DNA from: a bacterium
GTDB lineage: Bacteria > Pseudomonadota > Alphaproteobacteria > Rhodobacterales > Rhodobacteraceae
Length of the DNA: 64,000 bases
Assembly: GCA_016124195.1 (NCBI GenBank)
Contig: WGOE01000003.1
Span: 186,001-250,000 of the forward strand
Direction: 5' to 3'
Numbering within the stretch: position 1 is the first letter of the stretch; each line of letters opens with the position of its first letter. A program made the position numbers and the translations under genes. Below the pieces are notes generated by a model. That model saw only the letters and a list, made by a program, of their open reading frames with translations. It did no database searches and had not been told where the DNA came from. Below, piece after piece: positions 4,616-62,767 of the stretch.

Positions 4616-5935
4616 ATGGGCAAGACCGACTGGAAGGCTGAAGCCAAGGCTCTGAAAAAAGAGATCAAGGGCCTCAAGGCGCCGGCAGTGCCGGCCAAAG
4701 CGGCCAAGTTGGTCTCGCCCCTCGCACCGGCGCGCTTCCCCGACCTGCCCGTGATCCGCGGCGTCGAATTCGCCGCGGTCGAGGCCGGGGTGCGCTACAA
4801 GAACCGCAAGGATGTGATGCTGATCCGCCTCGCGCCCGGAACGGCCATGGCGGGGGTCTTCACCCGTTCGACCACCCGGTCGGCCTGCGTGCGCGATTGT
4901 CAGGCCAAGATCGGTCTGAAGAATGCCGAGGCGGCGGGCGCCGCCATCATCGTGAACTCCGGCAATTCCAATGCCTTCACCGGCGCCCGTGGCGAAGAAT
5001 CGGTCGCGGCCATCACGGGCGGCGTCGCCGCGGCGCTTGGCGTGCCGGCGACGCGGGTGTTTTCGTCCTCGACCGGGGTGATCGGCGAGCCCCTGCCGCA
5101 CGAACGGATCACGGCTGCCATCCCCGCCTTGCAGGCCGCCCTGCAAGAAGACGCCATCGCCATGGCGGCGCAAGCCATGATGACGACGGACACGTTCCCC
5201 AAGGGCGCCTCTGCCACGATCCCGGGCGAGGGCGGCATGATCCACATCGCCGGCATAGCCAAGGGTTCGGGCATGATCGCGCCAGACATGGCCACGATGC
5301 TTGTCTATATCTTCACCGACGCCAAGATCCCGGCGGCCAGCCTGCAACGGATCGTGTCGCGCAACACCGATGCAACCTTCAACTCCATCACGGTGGACAG
5401 CGACACGTCGACCTCGGACACTCTGCTGGTCGCGGCCACCGGCCTCTCCGACGCAGCCCCCCTGGCCGGAGCGACGCTGAAAGCCTTTGAAAAAGCGCTG
5501 GCTGGTGTGATGCTGGACCTTGCGCATCAGGTGATCCGCGACGGCGAGGGTGCCACCAAGTTCGTCGAGGTCAACGTGACCGGCGCGGCCTCTGACGGCG
5601 ATGCGCACAAGGTGGCATTGGCCATCGCCAATTCGCCGCTGGTCAAGACGGCCATCGCCGGCCAGGACCCGAACTGGGGCCGCATTGTCGCGGCCATCGG
5701 CAAATCCGGGGCGGAGGCCGACCGCGACCGCCTGACCATCAGGTTCGGCAGTATCCTCGTGGCCGAAAAGGGCTGGCGCAACCCGAAATACCAGGAGGAA
5801 GACGGCGCCGCCTATATGCGCAATCCCGAACTGGTGATTTCTGTCGACATGGGTCTCGGCAAGGGCAAGCGCAAGGTCTGGACCTGCGACCTGACCAACC
5901 GCTACATCGAGATCAATGCAGACTACCGTTCCTGA
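4616..5935 (+). CDS. argJ: Bifunctional glutamate N-acetyltransferase / N-acetylglutamate synthase ArgJ
   Basis: Arginine biosynthesis: moves the acetyl group from N-acetylornithine to glutamate and, if bifunctional, also makes N-acetylglutamate from acetyl-CoA. The 439-residue product is synthesised as a precursor that cleaves itself before a threonine nucleophile; the site is clear in KGSGMIAPDMATML (residues 216-229), with Thr227 expected to become the start of the beta chain. Other family motifs are NSGNSNAFTGARG, SSTGVIGEPLP and DPNWGR. The first 35 or so residues (Lys/Ala-rich, charged) extend beyond the usual family start. The start codon follows AAGGAGAG and lies 10 nt after the parvulin stop. 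Whether the enzyme is mono- or bifunctional is not decided by what I can see. Confidence 0.97.
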   Translation: MGKTDWKAEAKALKKEIKGLKAPAVPAKAAKLVSPLAPARFPDLPVIRGVEFAAVEAGVRYKNRKDVMLIRLAPGTAMAGVFTRSTTRSACVRDCQAKIGLKNAEAAGAAIIVNSGNSNAFTGARGEESVAAITGGVAAALGVPATRVFSSSTGVIGEPLPHERITAAIPALQAALQEDAIAMAAQAMMTTDTFPKGASATIPGEGGMIHIAGIAKGSGMIAPDMATMLVYIFTDAKIPAASLQRIVSRNTDATFNSITVDSDTSTSDTLLVAATGLSDAAPLAGATLKAFEKALAGVMLDLAHQVIRDGEGATKFVEVNVTGAASDGDAHKVALAIANSPLVKTAIAGQDPNWGRIVAAIGKSGAEADRDRLTIRFGSILVAEKGWRNPKYQEEDGAAYMRNPELVISVDMGLGKGKRKVWTCDLTNRYIEINADYRS

Positions 5936-6019
5936 ACCCGGCTCCAGAGCAGCCTTTCAGGTGCGAGTGCTCTGGGGGTCTGGGGGCAAGACTTCCGCCC
6001 TTTGCGCCGGAACAGGCTC

Positions 6020-6418
6020 ATGAAAATCGTTCTTGTCTCTGCCGTCGCCCTGATCGACCCGGATGGCCGTGTCCTTCTGGCGCAGCGGCCCCCCGGCAAA
6101 TCCATGGCTGGCCTGTGGGAGTTCCCTGGCGGCAAGGTCGAACCCACGGAAACCCCTGAAGCCGCCCTGATCCGCGAGCTTGAGGAGGAGCTGGGCATCA
6201 ACACCTGGAAGAGCTGTCTCGCGCCCCTGACCTTCGCCAGCCACAGCTACGACAGCTTCCACCTTTTGATGCCGCTCTTCGCTTGCCGGCGCTGGGAAGG
6301 CATCGCCACCCCACGAGAGGGGCAGACTCTCGCCTGGGTCACCCCCGAGAAGTTGCGCGACTACCCCATGCCACCTGCGGATGTGCCCCTGATTCCCGTC
6401 CTGCGCGACTGGCTTTAG
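6020..6418 (+). CDS. mutT: MutT-like Nudix hydrolase (8-oxo-dGTP diphosphatase)
   Basis: Likely hydrolyses 8-oxo-dGTP and so prevents A:T to C:G transversions. The 132-residue product, from the ATG at 6020, carries a full Nudix box (GGKVEPTETP, then RELEEELGI) with all the metal-binding glutamates, and the MutT-typical leader LAQRPPGKSMAGLWEFPGG. Length and motif spacing match MutT rather than a larger Nudix enzyme. A TTG 18 nt upstream would add six residues but has no better ribosome-binding site. The gene follows argJ after 84 nt on the same strand, so it may be the last gene of the parvulin-argJ-mutT group. Confidence 0.9.
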   Translation: MKIVLVSAVALIDPDGRVLLAQRPPGKSMAGLWEFPGGKVEPTETPEAALIRELEEELGINTWKSCLAPLTFASHSYDSFHLLMPLFACRRWEGIATPREGQTLAWVTPEKLRDYPMPPADVPLIPVLRDWL

Positions 6419-6544
6419 CCCCAAAACTATCCGAAAGAGATACGTAATTCTGCCCGAATCGGCGGAAATTCGCAATGTGACTGTTTCTTAAACCTTTATT
6501 GACAGCTATCGTCATCTATAGGGCGAGAAACAAAAGGTCATGCG

Positions 6545-6700
6545 ATGATAAGAACAATCACCGTCGGCAGCAGTGTGTTCATCCAAGGCACGTTTGTGCG
6601 CGATCTGAACGATGGTCAGATTGCCGTAAGGGTTTTTGACGGCACCTATGTCGGGCGCCCGGTTCAGCCTTACAAAGCGGCGGAAAGCGCGAACGCCTGA
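6545..6700 (+). CDS. Small conserved-type protein of unknown function (51 aa)
   Basis: A 51-codon reading frame starting with ATG at 6545, preceded by AAAGGT with 6-nt spacing, and ending at a TGA directly before a strong terminator. The peptide begins MIRTITVGSSVFIQG and continues as an alternating beta-type sequence (VRDLNDGQIAVRVFDG, then TYVGRPVQPY), like a tiny barrel or SH3-like strand set, with no signal peptide and no cysteine. A TTGACA (6499-6504) and a TATAGG (6517-6522) lie upstream but only 12 bp apart, so I do not call a promoter. It is convergent with infB. I do not recognise the function; a dedicated ribosome-binding site and terminator support a real gene. Confidence 0.7.
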   Translation: MIRTITVGSSVFIQGTFVRDLNDGQIAVRVFDGTYVGRPVQPYKAAESANA

Positions 6701-6711
6701 TTGTGTCAAAA

Positions 6712-6736
6712 GACCGGGCTTGACGCCCGGTCCTTT
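6712..6736. terminator. Bidirectional terminator between the 51-aa gene and infB
   Basis: Perfect 8-bp stem (GACCGGGC at 6712-6719 with GCCCGGTC at 6725-6732) and a 5-nt loop. It is followed by CTTTC on the plus strand and by TTTTG on the minus strand, so it can end both the small plus-strand gene (12 nt upstream) and infB (21 nt past its stop). Confidence 0.8.
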
Positions 6737-6752
6737 CAAATAAGACGCAGGC

Positions 6753-9338
6753 TCAGGCGAGCGTGCGCTGAATTTCCTCGCGTTCGAAGATTTCGATCAC
6801 GTCGCCGGACCGGATATCTTCGTAGCGTTCGAAAGCCATGCCGCATTCCTGACCCATCGGCACTTCCTTGACTTCGTCCTTGAAGCGCTTGAGCGTCTTG
6901 AGCGTGCCCTCGTGAATGACCACGTTGTCGCGCAGGAGACGCACGCCAGCCGAACGCCGCGCCACGCCTTCGGTGACCAGACAGCCAGCCACATTGCCGA
7001 TGTTGGAAATCTTGAAGACTTCCTTGATCGTCGCGTAGCCGATGAAGGTTTCGCGGATCTCGGCCTTCAAGAGGCCAGAGGCGGCTTTCTTGATGTCATC
7101 CACCAGATCATAGATGATCGAGTAGTAGCGGATCTCGACCCCTTTCTGGGTGGCCGAAGCGCGGGCCGTAGCGTTGGCGCGCACGTTGAAGCCGATGATC
7201 GGGGCCTTGCTGGCTTCGGCCAGGCCCACATCGGTATCCGTGATGGCGCCAACACCCGAATGCAGCACGCGGACGCGCACCTCTTCGTTGCCGACCTTTT
7301 CCAGGGCCTGAACAATCGCCTCGGCAGAGCCTTGCACGTCGGCCTTGACGATGATCGGCAGTTCCGAGACCGACAGATCGGCCTTCGCCTTGGCCATCAG
7401 CTGTTCCAGGGTCGTCGCGGCCCCCACGGCGGCGCGCTTGTCCTTGGCGGCCTTCTCGCGGTAGTCGGCGATCTCGCGCGCCTCGGCTTCGGTGTTGACC
7501 ACGTTCAGCGTGTCACCGGCGTGTGGTGTGCCCGACAGGCCCAGAACCTCGACCGGAACTGACGGGCCGGCTTCGGTGACCGTCTCGCCCTTGTCGTTGA
7601 TCAGCGCGCGGACCTTGCCCCACTGCTCGCCCACGACGAAGATATCGCCCTTCTTGAGCGTGCCGCTTTGCACCAGAACGGTGGCCACCGGACCTCGGCC
7701 CGAGTCGAGCTTGGCCTCGATGACGGCACCAGCGGCCTGACGGTTCGGGTTCGACCGCAATTCCAGGATCTCGGCCTGAAGCGAGATCGCCTCCAGCAGG
7801 TTGTCGAGCCCCTTGCCGGTCTTGGCCGAAACCTCGACATCCTGCACGTCGCCTGACATCTCTTCGACGACGATGTCGTGTTGCAGCAGGTCGGTCCGCA
7901 CCTTCTGCGGATTGGCCTCGTACTTGTCGATCTTGTTGATCGCAACGATGATCGGAACCTTGGCCGCCTTGGCATGGGCGATGGCTTCGATGGTCTGCGG
8001 CATCACCGCGTCATCGGCCGCGACCACCAGGATCACGATATCCGTCACATGCGCCCCGCGCGACCGCATCGAGGTGAAGGCCGCGTGGCCGGGCGTGTCG
8101 AGGAAGGTCACCATCTGGCCATTCGGGGTTTTCACCTGATAGGCGCCGATGTGCTGCGTGATGCCGCCCGCTTCGCCAGACACCACATTGGCGTGGCGGA
8201 TCGCGTCCAGAAGCGAGGTCTTGCCGTGGTCGACGTGACCCATGATCGTGACGATCGGCGGGCGCGGCAGCAGGTCCTCGGACTTGTCCTTGACCGTGTC
8301 GATCGCCTGTTCCACGTCGGCATCGGTCACGCGCACGGCGCGGTGGCCGAATTCCTCGATCACCAGTTCGGCGGTGTCGGCGTCGATCGCCTGGTTCATC
8401 GTGACCATCATGCCCATTTTCATGAGCGATTTGACCACGTCGGCGCCGCGTTCAGCCATCCGGTTGGCGAGTTCCGAAACCACGATGGTTTCAGGCAGCT
8501 GCACATCGCGCACCTGCTTTTCGGGCTTCAGCCCCATGCCCAGCGCCTTTTGCCGGGCCTTTTCCTGCTTGCGCTTCATCGCTGCCATGCTGCGCTGGCG
8601 GCCACCCTCGTCCGAGACGGCGTCCGACAGGGTCAGCTTGCCGGCGCGGCGGCCCTCTTCACCCTTGGCCTTGTTGGCGGCGCGTTCACGATCCTCGCGC
8701 TCGCGGTCGGTGCGACGCGGCGGCAGGCCGGGCTTGGCCGAGGCCGGGCCGCGGGCGACAGCATCCTCTTGCGGTGTGGCAGGCGCGGGACGCCCTGCCG
8801 CGGCACGAGCAGCCGGAGCATTGCCGGACCGGGCGGCCGGTGCCGCCTGCGCAGAGGCGGGGCGCTTGGCCTCTTCCGCGGCCTTGGCGGCGGCTTCGGC
8901 CTCGGCCTTGAGACGCTCTTCTTCCTCGACCTTGGCGCGGGCGGCAGCCTCGGCGGCGCGGGCTTCGCGTTCCTTGGCCTCGTTCTCGTCGCGCTTGCGC
9001 TGACGCTCTTCCTCGCGGGCCCTTTCGTCTTCAAGGCGCTTGGCGGCGTCTTCAGCCTCGCGGGCTTTGGCAGCGCGCAGGGCGGACAGGCGACGCTCCA
9101 TCTCGGCGTCGGAGATCCCGGCGGGGCGTTTGGACGGATCGCCCAGACGCGGCGAGGTGGCCACGGCCGCACCTGTGCCCGGCGTGGGCGTGTTGCCCTT
9201 GTTCGGCACCACCGTCAGCTTGCGCTTGACCTCGACCACGACGCTTTTCGTGCGGCCATGCGAGAAGCTTTGCTTCACCTGACCGGAACGAGGTGCGCCA
9301 CCCAGGCCGAGGGGTTTTTTGCCGTCTGTATCGCTCAT
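6753..9338 (-). CDS. infB: Translation initiation factor IF-2
   Basis: GTPase that places initiator fMet-tRNA on the 30S subunit and promotes 50S joining. The product is 861 residues from [11 protein letters not shown]; this ATG has TAGGA 5 nt upstream and is preferred over an in-frame TTG at 9350. Order: a short IF2-associated segment, a long Ala/Glu/Lys/Arg-rich charged region (about residues 75-260, typical of alphaproteobacterial IF-2), the IF2_N domain, the G domain with [22 protein letters not shown] and NKID, then domains II-IV ending in the fMet-binding barrel ([14 protein letters not shown]). It is the last gene of the rimP-nusA-ylxR-infB block and its start lies 5 nt after the ylxR stop. 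Confidence 0.98.
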
Positions 9339-12254: not shown

Positions 12255-12470
12255 CCGCGACTTTCGGTAGCTTCAGGTTTGGACCCTGAAACCGCTGTTG
12301 AGACTTACATAGGACCATCCCGCACCGGTTGCAAGCCCCATCTCCGGCGCCAGTCGAGACTCGGCCCGCGGCACATGCGAATCTTTAAGAATCGTTAAAA
12401 AGAGAGTAGCCTGAAGCCAATTGAAAAATTCACGTTGAAAATTGCGGCATTGTAAATGGGGGATAATGCA

Positions 12471-14513
12471 ATGGTCGTTCAGAATATCACTTTGGACGGA
12501 ACTTCGGATTTTTCAGCTTTTGGCGATACTTACAGCTGGTCCAGCCAGTTCATTGACGCGGTCAACATCGGAATTTCGTCCGGCGGCACGGCCAACGCGC
12601 TGAACGCGACGTTTTCCGGCGCGGCCTGGCGGATCAACCGCCTCAACCTCTATAATGACACGGCCTTCGGATTCGACACAACGCTCACCGATACCCATGA
12701 CGGCATAAGCCGGCGGATCGACAGTCTTTTCCTGCAGGACAACGGCAACGCATCGGTCACTCTGTTCGACACGCGGATCAAATTTATCTTCGGCGGCGTC
12801 AACAGCAACGTCACCCTGACGCTCGGCACCCAGAACACCCAGCATATCAACCTCGAGACCGGGACCAACACGGTCAACATGGGCTCTGGCGGCGTCAATT
12901 ACCTTTACATGGGCGACGGCACCAATGTGGTCAACGGCGCGGGCGGCTATATCGAATATCTGGGCTTTGGCAGCGGCACCAACACCTTCAACGGCGGCAG
13001 CAGCGATTTCGGCGTGATCGTCACGGGCAACGGCACCAATGTCTTCACCGTGCAGAACGGCGGCGGGGCGATCCGGTTTGGCCATGGCACCGATACGCTG
13101 GTTCTGAACGGAGGATTTCTGACCTCGGTCACCGCCTATTCGGGCGGCGTCAACACGATCACCGTCGGCGCGAATGCTCAGGTCAGCACCATCGGCCTGT
13201 CGGGCGGCAACGACAAGATCACGGTGAATGGTCAGGCCGAACAAGTCCTTGCGGGCAGCGGCGCCAATACCGTTGTGGTGGGCGCCACCGGGTCGATCAA
13301 CAGCCTGATCGGCTATGACGGGGTGGATACGCTGACGATGAACGGCGGAAACATCCAGCAGGCGCATCTGGGCGGTGGCAACAACGTCGTCAACCTGAAC
13401 TCGGGCCATATCGATTCGCTGACGCTATACAGCGGAGATGACCGGATCACAATCAAGACCGGCCAGATCGACGCGATCCAGATGGGCAATGGCACCAATA
13501 CCGCGACATTGGGCACGCAATACGTTGGCTTCATCGGCGGATATTCAGGCAATGACACCGTCACCGTCGGCACGGGCGGCGCGGGGATGATCCGGCTCGA
13601 TTCGGGGAACAACATCGTTCATTCGGCCGTCGGACATATCGACGCTGTCTTGGCCTTTGGCGGCATTGACCTCGTGACGACAGGCACCGGCGGCGCAGGC
13701 TCGATCGACCTGGGCGCGGGCGCGAATACGGTGGTGACCGGCAGCGGCTGGGTGGATTCGATCAGGACAGGCGACGGCATCGACCACATCACCATGGGCG
13801 CGGGCAATGCCGGGTCGGTCAAGACCGAGGGCGGGAATGACATCCTCAACCTCATCAACGGGCGGGCCGACTGGATCGACAGCGGCGCCGGCAATGACAC
13901 GGTGACGCTGGGCTTCGGCGGCGACCGGTTCGTGGCCCTGGGCGACGGCAACGACACGATCTCGCTTGCCGCGATGAACCCCAATTTCGGCGTGGTGATC
14001 GAAGGCGATGCCGGCACGGACACGATCAATGTCTCGCGCTTCACCAGCGGCGTGACACTGCTTCTGGGCAATGACGGAGCCTGGCAGGATTTCGGCCTGT
14101 CCGGCGTGGGCTACCTGTCGATGATCCAGGTCGAAAACGCCATCGGCACGGCGAAGGCCGACAACATCACTGGGAGCACGGACGCCAACAAGCTGGTCGG
14201 GGGCCTTGGTGCCGACACGTTGTCGGGGATGGACGGCAACGACACGCTGGTCGGCGGCAAGGGCAATGACAGCCTGACCGGAGGTGCCGGAGCGGATATC
14301 TTCGTCTTCGCGGCCGGCGACAACTCGGATGTGATCACCGATTTCACCTTGGGGGACGATCGCATACAGATCGTCGGCGTCCATCAACTCAGCGGCATCC
14401 AGTTTGCCAAAATCGGCGCGGACGTGCAGCTGAGCGTCGGCACGACCCTGCACATTCTGGTCGAAAACACGACGGTGCTTGCCCTGCACGATGCGGCGAA
14501 TTTCGTGTTCTGA
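12471..14513 (+). CDS. RTX-type secreted protein with about 20 tandem 19-residue repeats
   Basis: Probable type I-secreted, calcium-binding surface or extracellular protein of 680 residues. The ATG at 12471 is chosen because GGGGGAT lies 7 nt upstream; an ATG at 12456 has no ribosome-binding site. There is no Sec signal peptide. Residues 1-125 are a Ser/Gly/Asn-rich region. Residues 131-493 are tandem repeats close to G-x-N/D-T-V/I-x-x-G-x-x-G-x-I-x-S-I/L-x-x-G, which should form a regular beta-solenoid. Residues about 577-612 are classical RTX nonapeptides (GGLGADTL, GGKGNDSL, GGAGADIFVF), and the protein ends in a hydrophobic ANFVF, as type I signals often do. No catalytic motif is visible and no ABC/HlyD/TolC exporter genes are nearby. 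The function is unknown. Confidence 0.85.
   Translation: MVVQNITLDGTSDFSAFGDTYSWSSQFIDAVNIGISSGGTANALNATFSGAAWRINRLNLYNDTAFGFDTTLTDTHDGISRRIDSLFLQDNGNASVTLFDTRIKFIFGGVNSNVTLTLGTQNTQHINLETGTNTVNMGSGGVNYLYMGDGTNVVNGAGGYIEYLGFGSGTNTFNGGSSDFGVIVTGNGTNVFTVQNGGGAIRFGHGTDTLVLNGGFLTSVTAYSGGVNTITVGANAQVSTIGLSGGNDKITVNGQAEQVLAGSGANTVVVGATGSINSLIGYDGVDTLTMNGGNIQQAHLGGGNNVVNLNSGHIDSLTLYSGDDRITIKTGQIDAIQMGNGTNTATLGTQYVGFIGGYSGNDTVTVGTGGAGMIRLDSGNNIVHSAVGHIDAVLAFGGIDLVTTGTGGAGSIDLGAGANTVVTGSGWVDSIRTGDGIDHITMGAGNAGSVKTEGGNDILNLINGRADWIDSGAGNDTVTLGFGGDRFVALGDGNDTISLAAMNPNFGVVIEGDAGTDTINVSRFTSGVTLLLGNDGAWQDFGLSGVGYLSMIQVENAIGTAKADNITGSTDANKLVGGLGADTLSGMDGNDTLVGGKGNDSLTGGAGADIFVFAAGDNSDVITDFTLGDDRIQIVGVHQLSGIQFAKIGADVQLSVGTTLHILVENTTVLALHDAANFVF
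12861..14005 (+). repeat. Coding tandem repeat, about 20 units of 57 nt (19 aa)
   Basis: Successive units begin GTN, GTN, GTN, GTN, GTD, GVN, GND, GAN, GVD, GNN, GDD, GTN, GND, GNN, GID, GAN, GID, GND, GND, GND. From the fifth to the seventeenth unit the third position alternates strictly between Asp and Asn, so the natural repeat there is a 38-residue pair. The units diverge at DNA level, indicating old duplication rather than recent expansion. Confidence 0.85.
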
Positions 14514-15079: not shown

Positions 15080-15835
15080 CTAGATCCCGGCATACCAGTC
15101 ATAGCCGATCTGATCCTCCCAGAAACCGCCCTTGCCAAGACCCATGCCGGACAGGCTTGCCACGGCTTCGAGGCGCATCACGTATTTGGCCTGCTTGTAG
15201 CCAAGCTGGCGTTCCACGCGCATCCTGAGCGGCGCGCCGTGGCCGACGGAAAGCGCCTGATCGTTCATGCCATAGGCAAGGATCGTCTGCGGATGGAAAG
15301 CGTCCACCAGATCAATGCTTTCGTAATAGGCGCTGCCGCTGAAATCGTCGGCGCAGTGCAGCACGATGTATCGAGCCGTGGGCATGAGCTGCACCCTGTC
15401 GAGCAGGGCCTTCATCGGCACGCCGGTCCACTTGCCAATGGCACTCCAGCCTTCCACGCAGTCGTGGCGGGTGATCTGGGTGCGCGCGGGCATCGCCTTC
15501 AGCGCCTCCAGCGAAAAGCTGGCGGGGGTGGCGACCAGACCATCGACCTTGAGCTGCCAGTTGGCAAAGCCGGTGTTGATGTGGGCCTGATACTCGGCCG
15601 AGGCCGGCATCGTGTTGCCGTTGGTGCGAAAGGTCGGCGACATGTCGGCCTCGGTGAACTCTGGCGCCAGCGCATTGCGGCCGATCAGACGATGGCTCTG
15701 GTAGGACAGGGCCTCGCCGCTGCCCAGCAAAAGGTCGCGAAAGGCGGGGCTGAAGATCAGGCCAGCCGTGCCGCCGACGATTGCGGAATAGCCAAGGCCG
15801 GTCAGCAGGGACCTGCGGGTCAGAAGGCGTGCCAT
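15080..15835 (-). CDS. MsrP/YedY-like molybdopterin oxidoreductase, Tat-exported
   Basis: Periplasmic molybdenum enzyme of the sulfite-oxidase superfamily, 251 residues. A Tat-type signal (TRRSLLTGLGYSAIVGG) opens the protein. The molybdenum-ligating cysteine is in RHDCVEGWSAIGKW, followed by GVPMKALLD and HCADDFSGS. The carboxy-terminal half has HGAPLRMRVERQLGYKQAKY, a typical family segment. It overlaps the cytochrome b gene by one base (TGATG), so it is translated with it; the cytochrome should feed electrons from quinol. Known relatives repair periplasmic methionine sulfoxide (MsrP) or oxidise sulfite; the methionine-rich protein encoded just upstream favours the first, but the substrate is inferred. 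Confidence 0.88.
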   Translation of the reverse strand: MARLLTRRSLLTGLGYSAIVGGTAGLIFSPAFRDLLLGSGEALSYQSHRLIGRNALAPEFTEADMSPTFRTNGNTMPASAEYQAHINTGFANWQLKVDGLVATPASFSLEALKAMPARTQITRHDCVEGWSAIGKWTGVPMKALLDRVQLMPTARYIVLHCADDFSGSAYYESIDLVDAFHPQTILAYGMNDQALSVGHGAPLRMRVERQLGYKQAKYVMRLEAVASLSGMGLGKGGFWEDQIGYDWYAGI

Positions 15836-16686
15836 CACTTTTTCTCCTTCGGCAGGCGGTAGCGGCCGGTCAGCATGGAGCGCACTTCGTTGATCGGTCC
15901 GGCCAGAACCACCATCAACAGATGGACCAGGATGAACAGAACGATCCCCGTGGCGCAGATGAAATGCAGCGAGCGTGCAGATTGCCGGCCGCCGAACAGG
16001 TCCAGCAGCCAGGGAAAGGTCGCATTCAATCCCGGCGACATGGTGAAACCGGTCAGGATCATGCCGGGGATCAGCACGATCAGCACCGACAGATAGGCGA
16101 ATTTCTGCAGGACGTTGTAGCGCCGCGCGGCCTCGCCCGTCGGGAATTGCAGTCGGGCATGGTGCTTGATGTCGGCCCAGACATGGGCGGGACGGATCTC
16201 TTCGGTCGAGGGCAGCAGGTCGCGCTGCAGGTGCCGGTTGACCAGACTGCGGATCAGATAGGCCGCGATGCCCACGGCAAAAACCCAGGCGAAGGTCAGA
16301 TGCCAGCGCCGGGCCAGGGCAAGGTTGTAGCCTTGCGGGATCGTCGCCCACCACGGAAAGGCCCGGTTGCGCGGCTGCCCGTCCGAATCGGTCCAGCGGC
16401 CGAGGATGCCCGTGGTCTCGACCGTGACACTCCCCACGCGCAGAAAGCCGGTGTTGGCCTGCGTCGCCCCGATCTGCAGCCAGGCCGCATCTTGGTTGGC
16501 GCCGTATTTGCCCCAGTAAAGCCGGGGATGCGCGTTGAAGATCATCAGCCCGCTCATCAACATGATGACCAGCGTGATGACATTGGTCCAATGCCAGAGC
16601 CGGGTCGAAAGACGGTGTCTGTCCACGACATCGCCGCCCATGGGCTGAGAGGTCGCGGGCAGGTCTACAGGGTCGGTGATGTTCAT
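15835..16686 (-). CDS. Cytochrome b (b561-type) membrane partner of the molybdoenzyme
   Basis: Inner-membrane haem b protein of 283 residues that probably carries electrons between the quinone pool and the neighbouring molybdoenzyme. Four hydrophobic segments are visible: WTNVITLVIMLMSGLMIF, WVFAVGIAAYLIRSLV, LSVLIVLIPGMILTGF and ICATGIVLFILVHLLMVVLAG. Candidate haem histidines are in LSTRLWHW, RRWHLTFAW, KHHARLQF and SLHFICATG plus LVHLLMV. The fold matches the di-haem cytochrome b561/Ni-hydrogenase family rather than the MsrQ (YedZ) family. A periplasmic loop of about 60 residues separates helices 1 and 2. Its stop overlaps the molybdoenzyme start. Confidence 0.88.
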   Translation of the reverse strand: MNITDPVDLPATSQPMGGDVVDRHRLSTRLWHWTNVITLVIMLMSGLMIFNAHPRLYWGKYGANQDAAWLQIGATQANTGFLRVGSVTVETTGILGRWTDSDGQPRNRAFPWWATIPQGYNLALARRWHLTFAWVFAVGIAAYLIRSLVNRHLQRDLLPSTEEIRPAHVWADIKHHARLQFPTGEAARRYNVLQKFAYLSVLIVLIPGMILTGFTMSPGLNATFPWLLDLFGGRQSARSLHFICATGIVLFILVHLLMVVLAGPINEVRSMLTGRYRLPKEKK

Positions 16687-16716
16687 CTCTCTACCGTCGC
16701 AAAAGAGGATTGAGAC

Positions 16717-16741
16717 GGGCGCCAGTCCACCACCGGCGCCC
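16717..16741 (-). terminator. Hairpin after the methionine-rich protein gene
   Basis: GGGCGCC (16717-16723) and GGCGCCC (16735-16741) form a 7-bp stem 9 nt past the stop codon of the upstream minus-strand gene, followed by GTCTCAATCCTCTTTT. It may end or attenuate that transcript before the cytochrome b gene, or stabilise its 3' end. Confidence 0.45.
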
Positions 16742-16749
16742 GCGGTGGC

Positions 16750-17109
16750 TTACTTCTTGGGGTGCATGGCATCCATCAGCATCATGTCGGGATGATCGGT
16801 GCAGGTCTTGACCACGGCCGCCATCTGATCTTCGGGGCTCATCATGGCGCTGTCGGTGGCCATTGCGCCGCCGGTCGAGGCGGTGGCATCGCTTGCCATC
16901 CCGCCGGTGGAGGCGGTAGCGTCGCTCGCCATCGCGCCGCCGGTGCCCATGGCATCGCCAGAGCCCATGGCGTCATGCATCGCGGCCATCATGTGGTCCG
17001 AATCCATCGCGGTGAAGGCCTTGCAGGCCATGTCCTTGGCCATGCCGTCGGCAAAGGCGGGCGCGGCCAGCGCGGTTGAAAGGGCAAGAGCGGCAAGAAT
17101 GCGGTTCAT
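16750..17109 (-). CDS. Methionine-rich HdeA-like periplasmic protein
   Basis: Small exported protein, 119 residues from the ATG at 17107-17109 (MNRILAALALSTALAAPAFA signal). The mature part has about 99 residues of which 18 are methionine. Its two ends resemble HdeA: a first cysteine in MACKAFTAMDS and a second in AAVVKTCTDHPDMM, the pair that forms the disulfide in HdeA. Between them is an inserted low-complexity stretch with a duplicated ASDATASTGGM unit. HdeA is an acid-stress periplasmic chaperone. The Met content, and the MsrP-like enzyme encoded next on the same strand, suggest instead a sacrificial oxidant sink or a Msr substrate; this is inference. Confidence 0.75.
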   Translation of the reverse strand: MNRILAALALSTALAAPAFADGMAKDMACKAFTAMDSDHMMAAMHDAMGSGDAMGTGGAMASDATASTGGMASDATASTGGAMATDSAMMSPEDQMAAVVKTCTDHPDMMLMDAMHPKK

Positions 17110-17350
17110 GGTCAGTCTCCGGGTCAGGGCGGGCCGCGCCATCGAGGGCAACGTCCCGTCAGGTTGGCACCGGTCCACCAGCGGACCGATTGACCCAAGG
17201 GTGACCCGGCGCGCGGCAAAGTGGAAATGCCGCTTGCCAATGCTTTTGATGTTCGCCGGCTATGGAAACGGCCCCGCGATAGGCGCCGTGCATGAAACCC
17301 ATGCCGCTTGGGGTCTTTCGCCAGGGCCGGACTTGCGCGATGGTGGCGGC

Positions 17351-18001
17351 ATGAAAGAACCAACGCCCCTTGACGTCCGTCTGTCTGCCTGCCGGAACCT
17401 GCCGGGAGCCTGGACCAGGACTTATGACACCCTGATCGAACGGCTGCGCGGCTCTGGCGCCATGGCCGGCGCGCCGGGTGTCGGCGCTGTCGTGGCCGAT
17501 TTCGCCTTGCCCGATGCCAATGGCGTCCTGCGCCGGTTGAGCGATCTGGTCGCCGGGGGGCCGGTCGTGCTCAGCTTCAACCGGGGCAGCTGGTGTCCCT
17601 ATTGCCACGAAGAGATTTCCGCCTGGGCCGAAAGCCGCGCGGTGCTGGCCGCGGCGGGCGGGCAGTTGGTCATCATCACGCCGGAAACCGGCGGACGGAT
17701 GGCGGCGCTGGCCGGGATCGCCGGGCCGGAGGCGGTCGTGCTCGGTGATCAGAACATGGGCGTGGCGTTGCGCTATGGCCTGGCTTTCCCACTTGGGCGC
17801 GAAATTCTGGACGAATACGCCGCCGACGGCTTTGACCTGGCCGAGATCAACGGAAACGCCAGCGGCTTTCTGCCCACGCCGGCGACCTTTCTGATCGACC
17901 GGGACCGCGTGGTGCGCTTTGCCTTCGTCGACCCCGACTTCAGCCACCGCGCCGAACCGCAAGCGGTGCTGGCGGCCTTGCAGGCCTTGGTCAGGGCGTA
18001 A
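17351..18001 (+). CDS. Peroxiredoxin-like (AhpC/TSA) thiol protein
   Basis: Thioredoxin-fold protein of 216 residues, likely a peroxide or disulfide-handling enzyme. The active-site region is SFNRGSWCPYCHEEISAW, with two cysteines in CPYC spacing, where typical two-Cys peroxiredoxins have a single Cys at this site. It is followed by IITPETGGRMAAL and the cis-Pro region LPTPATFLIDRDRVV. About 45 helical residues precede the domain. No signal peptide is seen, so it is cytoplasmic. It is divergent from the Met-rich protein gene across a 240-bp gap, and its last 11 bases overlap the convergent LysR gene. The neighbourhood suggests oxidative stress, but the exact substrate is unknown. Confidence 0.82.
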   Translation: MKEPTPLDVRLSACRNLPGAWTRTYDTLIERLRGSGAMAGAPGVGAVVADFALPDANGVLRRLSDLVAGGPVVLSFNRGSWCPYCHEEISAWAESRAVLAAAGGQLVIITPETGGRMAALAGIAGPEAVVLGDQNMGVALRYGLAFPLGREILDEYAADGFDLAEINGNASGFLPTPATFLIDRDRVVRFAFVDPDFSHRAEPQAVLAALQALVRA

Positions 18002-18881
18002 TGGCCAGCGCCTCCGGTTCAGACTGCCAGGCGCGTGCGCGGGCCGCCCGCACCACAGCCTCGGCCGCGCGCCCGCGCCGTCGGCCGGCCACGGCGGCAA
18101 GCCCGATGGTCTGGCAAAGCTCCAGATCCCTGAACCCAACCATGCGCAGGCCGGGCGCCTGCGTGCCTTCGGGCAGGATGGCATGGCCCAGACGCAAGGC
18201 CACCAGATCCGGCGCCAGATCCGGGCCGGCGACCCGGTGGCGAAACTCGGGCGCAAGACCCAGCCGGCCAGCCACAGCGCGCCACAGCGCGGTCGCGTCA
18301 TCCGCGCAATCCAACCAGATCCGGCCCGCCGCCTCGGCTGCCGCCGGTCGGGGCGCGCCGTCATCGGCCCAAGTCGCCATCTCGTAGCGCTGCTGGTACA
18401 GCGGCCAGGTCTCCAAGCGTTCATGCAGCGTCTCGGGCAGGGCAATCAGCAGAAGGTCGATGCCCCCTTTCAGCGCGGCCTCGATCAGATGCTCGGACGT
18501 GCCATTGCGCAAATCAAGCGTCAGCCCGGGCAGCGCGCGCGCCACCGCGGCCAGAACCTCGCCCAAGGCGCGCGACTGCAACCCCCTTGCGATGCCGATG
18601 ACCAGGGGCGTCACCTCGGCCCGGCCAAGGCTGCTGGCCAGCGAGGCCGCAGCCTCGGCAGCCTCATAGGTCTGTTCCAGATGCGGCAGAACCATGCGGC
18701 CCAGTTCGGTGAGATGCGTCAAGGACCGTTCGCGGTTGAACAAAAGCCCGCCGAATTCATCTTCGAGCTTCTGGATCGCCCGGGTCAGCGACGGCTGCGT
18801 GACGTTGCATTGATCCGCGGCGCGCGTGAAATTCAGCGTCCGCGTCACGGCCAGAAAATATTTGATCTGATGCATTTCCAT
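17991..18881 (-). CDS. LysR-family transcriptional regulator
   Basis: DNA-binding regulator of 296 residues. The amino-terminal winged helix is typical (IKYFLAVTRTLNFTRAADQC, then NVTQPSLTRAIQKLEDEFGG, LFNRERSLTHLTELG), followed by a linker helix and a periplasmic-binding-protein-like effector domain starting about residue 90 (LVIGIARGLQSRALGE). It is not OxyR: the paired redox cysteines are absent. The 3' end overlaps the peroxiredoxin-like gene tail-to-tail by 11 bp, and no divergent target gene lies upstream, so its regulon cannot be deduced from position. Confidence 0.92.
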   Translation of the reverse strand: MEMHQIKYFLAVTRTLNFTRAADQCNVTQPSLTRAIQKLEDEFGGLLFNRERSLTHLTELGRMVLPHLEQTYEAAEAAASLASSLGRAEVTPLVIGIARGLQSRALGEVLAAVARALPGLTLDLRNGTSEHLIEAALKGGIDLLLIALPETLHERLETWPLYQQRYEMATWADDGAPRPAAAEAAGRIWLDCADDATALWRAVAGRLGLAPEFRHRVAGPDLAPDLVALRLGHAILPEGTQAPGLRMVGFRDLELCQTIGLAAVAGRRRGRAAEAVVRAARARAWQSEPEALAITP

Positions 18882-19201
18882 GGATTTGACAGATCACCCG
18901 ATGGCGCGCCCGGCCCGCATCACTTTTGCGTGCAACCCCGATGCAGACAATCCCGCTGCAACGCCGGAGAGGTATTCTGGCAGACTTCGGAGACTGGTTG
19001 GCGGCATCACACTTCTCCTTCAACCTGCCCGGGTCGTGGCAAGCGGGGCGGGCGATCCCGGTTGCGTCTGGGCCAGGCACGACCAGAGGTCTTTTGGCCC
19101 GATCAGCGTCTTGCCACCCGGAATGCCCTTCGTGCCTGTGGCAGGCTCGTTACGCGGTTCACGTCTTGGTGTCCGCGCTCCGGGCCAAGGAACGCTTGAA
19201 G
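18882..19201. other. 320-bp non-coding stretch between the LysR gene and polA
   Basis: Contains the LysR promoter region (left end) and the polA 3' flank (right end). No reading frame in it shows family features or a ribosome-binding site. A 6-bp stem (TGCCAC 19112-19117, GTGGCA 19138-19143) with a 20-nt loop lies about 60 nt beyond the polA stop and has no T-run. I see no other structure. Confidence 0.5.
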
Positions 19202-59176: not shown

Positions 59177-61411
59177 TCAGCCCTTCAGCGCCTTGAGAAT
59201 GCGCGGCGGCGACATCGGCAGTTCGGTCAGGCGCACGCCGGCCGCCCGGCTGACCGCATTGGCGATGGCGGCCAGCGGCGGCACGATCGGCGTCTCGCCC
59301 ACGCCGCGCACGCCGTAGGGGTGGCCCGGGTTGGGGATTTCCAGAATCACCGTCTCGATGTTGGGCAGGTCGCTCGCCACCGGGATGCGGTAATCAAGGA
59401 AGCCAGGGTTCTGCAGCCGCCCATCGGCACCGTAGATATATTCCTCGTTCAGCGCCCAGCCGATGCCCTGCACGGCGCCGCCCTGCATCTGGCCTTCGAC
59501 ATAGTCGGGATGCACCGCTTTGCCGGCATCCTGGAACACGGTATAGCGCAGCACCTTCGTCGCGCCGGTCTCGGGGTCAACCTCGACATCGACGAGGTGG
59601 ACGCCAAAGCTGACGCCCGCGCCATCGACGTTGACCTCATAATGGCCGGCGATAGGCCCGCCAGTCTGGGGCGAGGTCGCGGCGATCTCGGCCAGCGTCA
59701 GGGGCGGGAACTTGCCGGCGTTCGGGCCGGCGGGCACGGCCGCGCCATCGACCCAATCGACCGCCTCTTCGTCGATGCCCCAGAACCTGGCCGCGCGCGC
59801 CTTCATCTTGGCAATCGCATCGCGGGCGGCCTTGATCGTGGCCAGACCGACCGAGAAGGTCACCCGGCTGCCATCCGTCACGTCGTTATAGCCCAGCGAG
59901 TTCGTGTCGGCGACGATGGTGCGGATGTTCTCGTAGGGAATCCCCAGCTCTTCCGCCGCCATCAGGCTGATCGAGGCGCGCGAGCCGCCGATATCGGGGT
60001 TGCCCTCGGTCACGCCCACCGTGCCATCGGTGTTGATGTTGAGCGACACGCAGGTGTTGCCGCCAAAGTTGAACCAGAAGCCGCAGGACAGGCCGCGCCC
60101 CTGATTGGGCCCTAGGGGGGCGGTGTAATGCGGATGCGCCTTGGCGGCCTCAAGCGTCGCCTCAAGCCCGATTTCGTTGAAGGTCGGGCCATAGGAGGAC
60201 AGCGTGCCCTTGTGTGCTGCGTTCTTCAGCCGCACGGCAAGCGGGTCAAGTCCCAGCTTCTGGCACAACTCGTCCACCACGCTTTCGACGGCGTAGATGG
60301 CTTGCGGGGCGCCGGGGGCGCGGTAGGCGGCCTCTTTCGGGCGGTTGGTCAGGGCATTCCAGCCATAGGTGCGCACGGCCTCAACGTCATAGGCGGCAAA
60401 GGCGGCCTGAGCGCCCATGTCGCAGGTCCCGCAGGGGAAGGCCCCGCCAGAATACCGCAGGTTCGCCTCGCCGGCGGTGATGCGGCCGTCCTTGGTCATG
60501 CCGATCCGCACATCCATCGAGGACGAAACGGTGGGGCCGGTCGCCTTGAACACCTCGTCCCGGGTCATCACGATCTTGACCGGGCGGCCGGATTTCTTGG
60601 ACAGCGCCAGGGCCACGGGTTCGATGAAGACCGTGGTCTTGCCGCCGAAACCGCCGCCGATCTCGGACGGGGTGACGCGCAGCTGGCTCGCCTCCATCCC
60701 GATGATCGCCGAACACAGGGTGCGGACGAAGAACTGGCCCTGCGTGCAGCACCAGAGATCCGCCTTGCCATCGGCGGTGAAGGACGCAAGGCAGGCATGC
60801 GGCTCGATATAGCCCTGGTGGGTGGCTGCGGTCTTGAAGGACCGCTCGATCACCAGGTCGGCCTTGGCAAAGCCGGCGTCCAGATCGCCATGGCCGAATT
60901 CGCAGGCGTTCGTGACGTTTTCCGACATGCCGGCGGGGACGTTTTCCAAGGCGCGGCCGGCCTGGACGATGGGCGCGCCGGGTTTGACGGCGGCATCCAC
61001 GTCGGTGACATGAGGCAGGACCTCATAGACCACCTTGATCGCCTTGAGCGCGGCCTTGGCGATGGCGGGCGAGGTCGCGGCGACAGCGGCGACGGCGTGG
61101 CCATCGTACAGGGCCTTGTCGCGCGCCATGCAGTTTTCCTGCACATCGCGCAGGAAATTATCCTCTTGAGGCGTGAAATCGACGCCAGTGACCACGGCGC
61201 GCACGCCGGCAATCGCCTCTGCTGCCGAAGTGTCGATTGACACGATCCGCGCATGGGCGTGCGGCGAGCGCAGGATCGCCCCGGTCAGCATGCCGGGTGC
61301 CGTCATATCGGCGCCGTACTGCGCGCGGCCGGTGACCTTGTCCACGCCGTCCGGGCGGTTCGGCCTTGTGCCGACCTGGCGGAATTCGCGCTTTGCCTGA
61401 TCCAGGGCCAT
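59177..61411 (-). CDS. Xanthine-dehydrogenase-family molybdopterin-binding large subunit
   Basis: Catalytic (L) subunit of a molybdenum hydroxylase, 744 residues. The ATG at 61411 (GAGGA 8 nt upstream) is chosen over the GTG at 61420, which overlaps the small-subunit stop. The family motifs run from RPDGVDKVTGRAQYGADM through GGGFGGKTTVFIEPVALAL, the active-site loop AAYRAPGAPQAIYAVESVVD and GGSRASISLMAAEELG to the catalytic glutamate in YGVRGVGETPIVPPLAAIAN. The loop is not VAYRCSFR, so this is not a form I CO dehydrogenase. It resembles less-studied CoxL-like or aldehyde/aromatic hydroxylases, so the substrate is unknown. Order M-S-L, then MoaD. Confidence 0.92.
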   Translation of the reverse strand: MALDQAKREFRQVGTRPNRPDGVDKVTGRAQYGADMTAPGMLTGAILRSPHAHARIVSIDTSAAEAIAGVRAVVTGVDFTPQEDNFLRDVQENCMARDKALYDGHAVAAVAATSPAIAKAALKAIKVVYEVLPHVTDVDAAVKPGAPIVQAGRALENVPAGMSENVTNACEFGHGDLDAGFAKADLVIERSFKTAATHQGYIEPHACLASFTADGKADLWCCTQGQFFVRTLCSAIIGMEASQLRVTPSEIGGGFGGKTTVFIEPVALALSKKSGRPVKIVMTRDEVFKATGPTVSSSMDVRIGMTKDGRITAGEANLRYSGGAFPCGTCDMGAQAAFAAYDVEAVRTYGWNALTNRPKEAAYRAPGAPQAIYAVESVVDELCQKLGLDPLAVRLKNAAHKGTLSSYGPTFNEIGLEATLEAAKAHPHYTAPLGPNQGRGLSCGFWFNFGGNTCVSLNINTDGTVGVTEGNPDIGGSRASISLMAAEELGIPYENIRTIVADTNSLGYNDVTDGSRVTFSVGLATIKAARDAIAKMKARAARFWGIDEEAVDWVDGAAVPAGPNAGKFPPLTLAEIAATSPQTGGPIAGHYEVNVDGAGVSFGVHLVDVEVDPETGATKVLRYTVFQDAGKAVHPDYVEGQMQGGAVQGIGWALNEEYIYGADGRLQNPGFLDYRIPVASDLPNIETVILEIPNPGHPYGVRGVGETPIVPPLAAIANAVSRAAGVRLTELPMSPPRILKALKG

Positions 61412-61412
61412 G

Positions 61413-61889
61413 TTACGCACTCCTCATTTCAGCGGCGGCCACCTGAACGGCGGCGATGATCTTGTCGTATCCGGTGCAGCGGCACAGGTTGCCGGCCAGC
61501 CAGTAGCGCACCTCTTCATCGGTGGGGCTGGGATTTTTCTCCAAGAGGGCCTTGGCCGCCACCAGAATCCCGGGCGTGCAGACGCCGCATTGGAAGGCCG
61601 CGCCGTCGATGAAGGCTCGCTGCAGCGGGTGAAGCTGGTCGCCTTCGGCCATGCCTTCGATGGTGGTGATCTCGGCCCGCTGCGCCTCGGCCCCGAGGAC
61701 CAGACAGGAACAGACCAGACGGCCATTGAGCGTCACCGAACAGGCGCCGCAGTCGCCGGTGCCGCAACCCTCTTTCGCGCCGGTCAGGTGCAGGCGGTTG
61801 CGCAGAACGTCCAGCAGGGGCTCGTCCGGGTCACAGATGAACTCGACCGGATCGCCGTTGATGGTGGTAGAGATGTGAAGGCTTTTCAT
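61413..61889 (-). CDS. 2Fe-2S-binding small subunit of the molybdenum hydroxylase
   Basis: Electron-transfer (S) subunit with two 2Fe-2S clusters, 158 residues. The plant-ferredoxin-type cluster is in KEGCGTGDCGACSVTLNGRL, with its fourth Cys in VCSCLV. The second is in FQCGVCTPGILVAAKALLEK and LAGNLCRCTGYDKIIAAV. It passes electrons from the molybdenum site to the FAD subunit. Start and stop overlap or nearly touch both neighbours (ATGA with the FAD gene), so the three subunits are translated in step. Confidence 0.95.
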   Translation of the reverse strand: MKSLHISTTINGDPVEFICDPDEPLLDVLRNRLHLTGAKEGCGTGDCGACSVTLNGRLVCSCLVLGAEAQRAEITTIEGMAEGDQLHPLQRAFIDGAAFQCGVCTPGILVAAKALLEKNPSPTDEEVRYWLAGNLCRCTGYDKIIAAVQVAAAEMRSA

Positions 61890-62767
61890 TTCGATGCTCC
61901 GGCATTGGCCGAGCCTTGGGCGCGGTCATAGGCGATTTTTGCGGCACGGCGGGCCAGAACGCCCGCGGTGGAGGTGCGGAAGGCGATGGTGCCGCGCTTG
62001 TCGTCGATCGGGTTGCAGGCGGCCTCGCAGGCCTGGGCGAGCGCGGACAGCGCCGCATCCTCAAGCTTGGTGCCGATGATGGCCTTGGCCGCGGCCTCGA
62101 CCAGCACGACCTTCGGGGCGACCGCGCCCAGGGCCACGCGGGCCGCGGTGACGGTGCCCGTAGCATCCAGCGTCAGGTTGACGGCGGCCGAGGCGACGGC
62201 GATGTCCATCTCGGTCCGCGGGATGAAGCGCAGATAGGCGTCGCCAGACCGCGCCGGACGCGCCGGCAGCAGGATCGAGGTGACGATCTGCGCCTTGTTC
62301 AGCGTGGTCTTGCCCGGGCCGGCAGGAATATCCAGCACCGGCACATCATGGGTGCCATCCGGGCCCGCCACACGCACCACGGCATCGGCCGCGACCAGCG
62401 CCGGCACCGAATCCGCGGCCGGAGAACCGTTGCACAGGTTGCCCGCTATCGTGCTGCGACCCTGAACCTGGGTCGATCCGATCAGGCCGGCCGCCTCGAT
62501 CACGCCGGGCCATTGCTGGCAGACGCCGGCATGTTCGCGCAGTTCGGCATTGGCGACAGCCGCGCCGATGCGAAAGCCGCCGGCTTCGGGAACGATGTCA
62601 CGGATGCCGGGGATGTGCTTGATGTCCACCACCAGATCGACGGTCAGATTTCCCGCCTTCATCTGCACCAAGAGGTCGGTGCCCCCCGCCAGAACCCGGG
62701 ATTTTCCCGGCTCTTCGGCCAAGGCCATCGCCGCGGCCGAGGCGCTTTGCGCTGTCATGTATCTCAT
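61886..62767 (-). CDS. FAD-binding medium subunit of the molybdenum hydroxylase
   Basis: FAD (M) subunit, 293 residues. The CoxM-type FAD-binding motif is in KSRVLAGGTDLLVQMKAGNL and the second in STIAGNLCNGSPAADSVPAL. The carboxy-terminal CO_deh_flav_C domain starts about residue 165 (DAYLRFIPRTEMDIAVASAA). It is the first gene of the M-S-L-moaD group. The ATG at 62767 has AGG 7 nt upstream; a second ATG three codons later is possible. It hands electrons to an acceptor that the sequence does not show. Confidence 0.92.
   Translation of the reverse strand: MRYMTAQSASAAAMALAEEPGKSRVLAGGTDLLVQMKAGNLTVDLVVDIKHIPGIRDIVPEAGGFRIGAAVANAELREHAGVCQQWPGVIEAAGLIGSTQVQGRSTIAGNLCNGSPAADSVPALVAADAVVRVAGPDGTHDVPVLDIPAGPGKTTLNKAQIVTSILLPARPARSGDAYLRFIPRTEMDIAVASAAVNLTLDATGTVTAARVALGAVAPKVVLVEAAAKAIIGTKLEDAALSALAQACEAACNPIDDKRGTIAFRTSTAGVLARRAAKIAYDRAQGSANAGASK

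Follow-up and report, generated by a model that had tools for sequence, protein, structure and literature searches.

The 64,000-nt stretch analyzed here (the window; contig WGOE01000003.1 of assembly GCA_016124195.1, positions 186,001 to 250,000), from a member of the Rhodobacteraceae, carries three minus-strand genes in the order X, Q, P, which we consider probable parts of one periplasmic methionine-cycling module. X (16750..17109; 119 aa) encodes a putatively exported, methionine-rich, HdeA-like protein, Q (15835..16686; 283 aa) a cytochrome b561-type membrane protein, and P (15080..15835; 251 aa) a molybdenum cofactor (Moco) enzyme with a sulfite oxidase fold. The stop codon of Q and the start codon of P overlap in TGATG at 15837-15833. 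Coordinates, gene order, and overlap agree with an earlier first-pass annotation made from the sequence alone. Genomes compared below bear numbers, G000 being that of the window, and "order" and "family" refer to the groups of sampled genomes around it.

The mature part of X, counted from a cleavage site estimated by eye behind a signal-like N-terminus, comprises ∼99 residues, 18 of which are methionines, with cysteines at mature positions 9 and 83. Between these cysteines, which lie 74 residues apart, sits a near-duplicated insert; the first-pass annotation had given the same methionine count and called the insert duplicated. Because the congener G008 carries a 69%-identical copy in the equivalent place, with a ratio of nonsynonymous to synonymous substitution rates (dN/dS) of ∼0.17 between the two (dS 1.37, near saturation), we regard X as a real gene. 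About 62 bp upstream of it, an imperfect inverted repeat with a CGGTCC-N6-GGACCG core (17171..17190, minus strand) constitutes a candidate operator. In an alignment of the upstream DNA, this repeat is kept in the window, G008, and G601, with a less perfect arm in the last.

X resembles HdeA and HdeB (PF06411) in its small size, its putative export, and a pair of cysteine motifs, C..F.AM and C...PD; HdeA-type proteins of the window's order have the same motifs, many of them along with long inter-cysteine stretches. X is unlike HdeA/HdeB in its methionine content, in the methionine-bearing repeats of its inserts, and in that all five X proteins described below score under the Pfam cut-off. Specifically, PF06411 gave 11.3 bits (E 0.46) for the window's X, 20.8 for that of G341, 12.1 for that of G601, and none for those of G536 and G008 (HMMER default-corrected scores, as used throughout), and a scan of the window's own genome returned no PF06411 match at E ≤ 1. 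We also trained a profile on 12 HdeA-type sequences from the window's order, stripped of signal peptides and with no X among them; on it, the five proteins scored 28.1 (G008), 27.2 (G341), 24.3 (G601), 19.2 (window), and 11.8 bits (G536). Shuffled sequences scored as high in 0/600 cases each for the window, G008, and G341 and in 0/300 each for G601 and G536. Seven methionine-rich proteins that occupy this slot in other genomes, including two confirmed MXKDX proteins, reached ≤5.5 bits. The MXKDX model TIGR02953, in turn, gave no match for X of the window, G008, G341, and G601, and 13.3 bits against a cut-off of 41 for that of G536. The HdeA-like label of the first-pass annotation therefore stands on the purpose-built profile (19.2 bits) and falls short on the Pfam model (11.3 versus 22 bits), and X is, as judged by its sequence, best described as HdeA-like and not as a member of PF06411.

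The assignment of Q as a b561-type cytochrome was confirmed by PF01292 (E 5e-23), and Q is presumed from its sequence to conduct electrons from quinol to P. P matches PF00174 (E 3e-34) and has a twin-arginine-type stretch, TRRSLLTG, at its N-terminus (by eye). An AlphaFold model of P, based on 27 aligned sequences, has a mean predicted local distance difference test score (pLDDT) of 73.8. Its best fold match by E-value is 1xdy/1xdq (3.9e-12, TM-score 0.49), which we take to be E. coli YedY/MsrP; sulfite dehydrogenases come next, and SorT and SoxC are among the matches. By sequence as by fold, 1xdq/1xdy is the best solved structure. CVEGWS in P aligns with CVEAWS of the 1xdq sequence, and across 27 P sequences H124, C126, V127, E128, G129, and W130 never vary and S131 almost never does. 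The genome has five PF00174 places, P included. At one of these loci, L004, a 306-aa MsrP-like protein is followed by a 199-aa MsrQ-like protein (both named by reading), and we therefore rejected P as the MsrP of this genome. What survives of the first-pass description of P as MsrP/YedY-like is the family, PF00174, with MsrP as the best NCBIfam profile; the score stays under the cut-off of that profile, and the genome's own MsrPQ-like pair lies elsewhere.

A methionine-rich HdeA-like X directly before Q-P occurs in five genomes from four genera, namely G000, G008, G341, G536, and G601. The mature proteins span 89-120 residues with 18-22 methionines (18-21%) and have 63-90 residues between the cysteines. 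By eye, the inserts consist of GDAMAS repeats in G601 and MASDT repeats in G536, are acidic and irregular in G341, and are built from 11-12-residue repeats in the window and G008, the sequences of which are unlike each other. Since the repeats differ while methionine stays at 18-21%, it is the methionine content, rather than the sequence, that seems to be kept. The high methionine content and the adjacency to the enzyme pair, which the first-pass annotation had proposed to look for in relatives, were both seen in four further genomes, three of them found through P.

The X of G341 was recovered by an independent HdeA scan and provides the sole independent test of adjacency. PF06411 matched in 27 of 292 order genomes, at 29 places, among which G341 alone has Q-P within the 1.5-kb flanks. 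Its X is also the only methionine-rich one among the places resolved, with 19% as against 2-8% (median 4.6%) in 23 HdeA-type proteins away from Q-P, so that X is ∼4-fold higher in a comparison that leaves out L114 (6% methionine) and four unresolved places of the 29. Methionine-rich HdeA-like proteins away from Q-P may be missed by such a scan, as Pfam misses the window's X itself.

Among 394 family genomes searched with P, seven carry it at E ≤ 1e-75, with an HdeA-type X in G000, G341, G536, and G601 and none seen in G107 and G665; in G547 the contig begins ∼0.36 kb before Q, making the X slot unreadable. In the order sample, 17/390 genomes have P at E ≤ 1e-35, at 18 places, and listing of open reading frames (ORFs) revealed an HdeA-type X in two, G000 and G341. 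For 6 genomes of a 61-genome set, an HdeA-type X was seen in G000 and G008 and, by a crude methionine-rich filter, not in G048, G009, G011, and G040. A search of 390 order genomes with the single X sequence (E ≤ 0.001) hit six genomes, its own included; we discarded the five non-self matches, which align at the signal peptides of other proteins (two fasciclin-like, two cytochrome c-type, and one other protein, by reading). This search is insensitive, having missed G341 within the same sample.

On a 104-row tree of P with three HdeA-type rows, the distribution of this X requires two changes; on a 38-row tree with five such rows, composed of 35 of the 104 rows plus three new ones, it requires one. 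A single HdeA-type clade is compatible with the P data (approximately unbiased test, p 0.295). On the 38-row tree, the rows closest to the window that lack an HdeA-type X belong to Aureimonas and Mangrovicella, and in both the upstream gene is methionine-rich (MXKDX in Aureimonas); the fork that unites these two with the HdeA-type group has no strong support (85/91). No description of a methionine-rich HdeA-like protein of this kind was found among the open-licence PMC papers searched. Relative to these papers, the new feature is an HdeA-like X, carried by five family genomes, with methionine-bearing, mostly repetitive inter-cysteine sequence, and the whole looks like a known methionine-cycling module with a new sink scaffold.

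We searched named genomes with P, obtaining at least 586 confirmed places, and kept the best 80 loci, which are related and whose counts are thus of non-independent events. At each of the 80, the gene immediately before P, in the same orientation, is a Q homologue; in this sample, the pair is spread over many Alphaproteobacteria and some Betaproteobacteria. When small methionine-rich ORFs with a signal were picked out by a crude filter, 17/80 loci had one upstream of Q, from Rhizobium, Neorhizobium, another Rhizobiales isolate, Kaistia, Rhodoblastus, Aureimonas, Mangrovicella, a Xanthobacteraceae metagenome-assembled genome, and one Sphingomonas. Some of these slot proteins are almost wholly methionine-bearing repeat. 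Two were scanned, those of Rhizobium johnstonii and Aureimonas, and both exceed the cut-off of the MXKDX model TIGR02953. Relatives of the sigma factor SigF (tblastn E ≤ 1e-6, a threshold at which other extracytoplasmic function [ECF] sigma factors may also match) were detected at 16 of the 80 loci, NrsF at 9, and MsrB and MsrA at 3 each. The SigF relatives lay in the fetched flanks of 14/17 loci with a methionine-rich gene versus 2/63 without. Because a methionine-rich gene precedes Q-P in 17/80 loci, with SigF nearby in 14, we favor a known module over a separate system. P homologues (E ≤ 1e-40) also occur on 104/72,556 plasmid records, with Rhizobium (54) and Agrobacterium (23) contributing most and 41 typed as conjugative.

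Several further observations concern this slot and the P family. The P homologue of plasmid CP030830.1 has a gene annotated as a sigma factor and an ORF of 174 bp next to it. At three loci in the window's family (L144, L145, and L147), a fasciclin-like ORF (by reading) stands just upstream of Q-P instead of a methionine-rich protein. A more distant branch of P, with ∼40% identity, is found in G390:C1 (L150) and G119:C7 (L149), the latter, one of the 18 places of the order sample, without a Q homologue beside P. In Rhizobium halophytocola (L062), the methionine-rich X has upstream of it another small exported protein, with fewer methionines (5/73) and a C-terminus bearing a similar pair of cysteines, and Rhizobium MXKDX proteins carry a comparable cysteine pair at the C-terminal end.

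As the first-pass annotation had it, a peroxiredoxin-like (AhpC/TSA) gene (17351..18001, plus strand) is divergent from X; it is kept beside X in G008 and G601. Convergent with it lies a gene for a LysR-type regulator (17991..18881, minus strand), which in G008 and G601 comes after msrB, DsbD-type, and msrA genes of like orientation. At the right end of the window, MsrA (PF01625; 62922..63599, minus strand, 225 aa) and MsrB (PF01641; 63624..64000, minus strand) are adjacent with no gene between them, both with signal-like N-termini by eye. MsrB, which has a SigF-type motif upstream, is cut by the window end and is found whole at L104:3625-4113. ECF SigF and NrsF (PF06532) follow at G000:C9:250309-251498, ∼0.3-1.5 kb beyond the window end and ∼47 kb from X-Q-P. 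In G601 all of these form one cluster, comprising P, Q, X, the divergent peroxiredoxin, LysR, MsrA, a DsbD-type transmembrane/thioredoxin-like protein, MsrB, and, divergently oriented, SigF-NrsF. From X to MsrB, the gene order of G008 is the same, with the DsbD-type match below cut-off and NrsF on another contig. The window genome carries the set in separate parts, with X-Q-P, peroxiredoxin, and LysR at 15-19 kb and MsrA, MsrB, and SigF-NrsF at the right end or beyond. Within the 12-14 kb fetched, G536 gave no match to peroxiredoxin, LysR, MsrA, MsrB, SigF, and NrsF queries, nor did G341 to the MsrA, MsrB, SigF, and NrsF queries, those for peroxiredoxin and LysR having been left out.

The SigF motif has been described as GTAACC-N16-CGAA (PMC3511200; this and the other papers are cited here from excerpts). 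A candidate promoter of this type, GTAAC-N16-CGAA (19129..19153, minus strand), sits 248 bp before the LysR gene. The window holds 3 such matches versus 0.53 expected, a number reached in 1/100 shuffles. Motifs of the SigF type stand before msrB in the window genome, G601, and G008, before sigF in the first two of these, and before a DUF2282 gene in the window genome. One might hypothesize a relay from SigF via LysR to X-Q-P. The DUF2282 small protein gene and an MbnB/TglH/ChrH-type (DUF692) gene (L104:6255-7518 on G000:C9, 2-4 kb past the window end) adjoin SigF-NrsF, with the SigF-type motif upstream of the former gene, as in the Caulobacter SigF regulon (excerpts of PMC3511200). Beside MsrA, the window (59177-62767, minus strand) encodes the large, 2Fe-2S, and flavin adenine dinucleotide subunits of a xanthine/CO-dehydrogenase-type molybdoenzyme (three genes, by reading). 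Near P lies a 685-aa glycine/aspartate repeat ORF (12456-14513, plus strand; RTX-like by eye), and long repeat ORFs also occur downstream of P in G008 (L012:209-4777 and 5117-7024).

Taken together, we think it probable that X-Q-P is a SigF-associated periplasmic methionine-cycling module of the mrpX-yedYZ/bcrXQP type, in which X serves as sacrificial sink. X would be exported, and reactive chlorine or similar species would oxidize its exposed methionines ahead of essential envelope proteins. P, predicted to be exported by the twin-arginine translocation (Tat) route, would regenerate methionine from methionine sulfoxide in X, using electrons that reach it from membrane quinol through the b-type cytochrome Q. 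In the window's lineage, an HdeA-like protein filled, between its two cysteines, with methionine-bearing, mostly repetitive sequence would serve as the sink in place of the usual MXKDX peptide, and exported MsrA and MsrB, with the DsbD-type protein in relatives, may provide a thiol-dependent second arm. The genes, their adjacency, the methionine enrichment, the HdeA resemblance, and the co-occurrence with SigF/NrsF and MsrA/MsrB are direct observations; export, electron route, substrate of P, oxidant, and sink role are what we infer from them. The first-pass annotation had proposed a parallel system with an HdeA-like fold as the sink: the HdeA-like scaffold does occupy the slot, in what appears to be a variant of the SigF-linked X-Q-P module and not a system apart.

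A number of results weigh against this interpretation. The crude filter saw no methionine-rich gene upstream of Q-P in 63/80 of the best named loci, nor was a methionine-rich X seen before Q-P in the close relatives G107 and G665, which argues that Q-P often works with substrates other than X. For P, the best NCBIfam profile, MsrP (NF003767), scores 93.1 bits, under its equivalog cut-off of 207. The 22-bit PF06411 cut-off is reached by none of the five X proteins; on the purpose-built profile, the best shuffle of the window's X reached 17.9 bits versus its 19.2, a thin margin; and an AlphaFold model of X alone, from the single sequence, is poor (mean pLDDT 48.5). The X proteins of G008, G536, and G601 were found through P, such that their adjacency is given by construction. 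As for regulation, G341 lacks a PF06532 (NrsF) match, and no exact SigF-type motif precedes X in any of the five loci (GTAAC-N14-18-CGAA in the window and G008; N15-17 in G601, G341, and G536), a scan that is insensitive, as Aureimonas and Mangrovicella, with SigF/NrsF relatives nearby, likewise have none. Chlorite dismutase gave no match in the window genome, and a link to it was rejected.

As one departure from a pure sink, X might be an oxidation-switched periplasmic holdase, with oxidation of the methionine segment altering its order and exposing a client-binding surface, and P-Q resetting it from the quinone pool. We hold this to be rather unlikely, yet, if true, it would unite oxidant scavenging and chaperoning in one protein.

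Alternatively, X could be a periplasmic copper- or metal-binding protein whose methionines and histidines ligate Cu(I), with P-Q repairing oxidized ligands. Met-His clusters in the window's X (DHMMAAMHDAM, DHPDMMLMDAMHP) would fit such a role, as would the DUF2282 and DUF692-type gene pair with its SigF-like motif next to SigF-NrsF. According to the excerpted sources, Caulobacter SigF responds to heavy metals (PMC3511200), and E. coli MsrPQ and the copper chaperone CusF are the topic of PMC9302797. Histidine is scarce, however, at 1 to 4 per mature X, and the methionine spacing tracks the repeat of each species with no fixed motif. Moreover, no copper gene was recognized among the neighbors (window 12.5-22 kb, L012, and L160; no dedicated search was made), and the module that has MXKDX proteins in this slot has been studied in connection with hypochlorous acid (HOCl), as far as the excerpts go. 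We consider a metal-binding role improbable.

The conserved HdeA-like halves raise the question of whether X acts as an HdeA-type periplasmic chaperone, a client in need of repair or switched by oxidation but not a sink, with P-Q keeping its methionines reduced. There is precedent in the chaperone Spy, whose oxidized methionines are repaired under chlorite stress (excerpts of PMC12503329). A client merely in need of repair would, however, gain from losing methionines, whereas X has ∼4-fold the methionine of unlinked HdeA-type proteins, placed in repeats, and in relatives the slot holds proteins that are almost only methionine-bearing repeat. This, too, we deem an unlikely explanation. Least of all do we expect P to be a sulfite-oxidizing or other sulfur enzyme with an incidental methionine-rich neighbor: although its fold family, the SorT and SoxC matches, the 63/80 Q-P loci without X, and a Caulobacter SigF-dependent YedY-like gene taken as sulfite oxidase by its authors (excerpts of PMC3511200) point that way, the alignment of CVEGWS with CVEAWS of 1xdq, MsrP as best NCBIfam family, four other PF00174 places in the genome, and the recurrence of MsrA/MsrB and SigF/NrsF around X-bearing loci speak against it.

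Should the sink interpretation be right, two scaffolds, the MXKDX peptide and an HdeA-like Met-repeat protein, would occupy the same slot of one operon, and species-specific repeats that keep only methionine density would suggest selection on methionine number. Such natural variants could then be used to ask what number and exposure of methionines a sink requires and with which reductase it must be paired. A pair of b561-type cytochrome and Moco enzyme would, in addition, be tied to methionine sulfoxide repair.

Among known systems, P-Q is similar to E. coli MsrP/MsrQ (YedYZ) in combining a Tat-exported Moco enzyme, with its CVExWS stretch, and a b-heme membrane partner. The likeness has limits: P is 251 aa long and under the MsrP cut-off, and Q is a PF01292 cytochrome b561, unlike E. 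coli MsrQ, which is ferric-reductase-like. A precedent for coupling Q to P comes from Sco3746, a natural fusion of a heme-b membrane part with a Moco domain and a distant homologue of MsrP/MsrQ, as described in excerpts of PMC5449189.

Further close parallels are two SigF- or ECF16-linked modules, which bear out the Azospira MrpX/YedY precedent named in the first-pass annotation (excerpts of PMC5748585, PMC4623255, and PMC8315932). In Azospira suillum, mrpX-yedY1-yedZ with SigF/NrsF resembles the present locus, by description and not by sequence, in having a methionine-rich periplasmic protein, a YedY-type enzyme, and a membrane donor, with electrons taking the route quinone-YedZ-YedY-peptide (PMC5748585). 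The combination of sigF/nrsF, yedYZ, and mrpX in perchlorate islands is viewed as a periplasmic methionine-cycling mechanism, and msrA and msrB are predicted to be exported in two such islands (PMC4623255). The Azospira sink is a short methionine-rich peptide in a perchlorate setting, whereas here chlorite dismutase gave no match. In Brucella, bcrXQP encodes a methionine-rich MXKDX protein along with MsrQP homologues; the genes are cotranscribed, HOCl-induced, and controlled by an ECF16 pair, and a triple bcrXQP mutant shows lower HOCl survival at 1.5 h (PMC8315932). Shared with the window are the trio of methionine-rich exported protein, membrane protein, and Moco-type enzyme and the link to an ECF16 sigma/anti-sigma pair (BcrS/AbcS in Brucella), again a likeness by description, not sequence, BcrX being an MXKDX repeat protein and X HdeA-like. 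The core of such a module is present in the window, where genes for a membrane cytochrome and a Moco enzyme are immediately preceded by one for a methionine-rich exported protein; the SigF/NrsF (ECF16-type) pair, adjacent in Brucella, lies ∼47 kb away in this genome and in the same cluster in G601.

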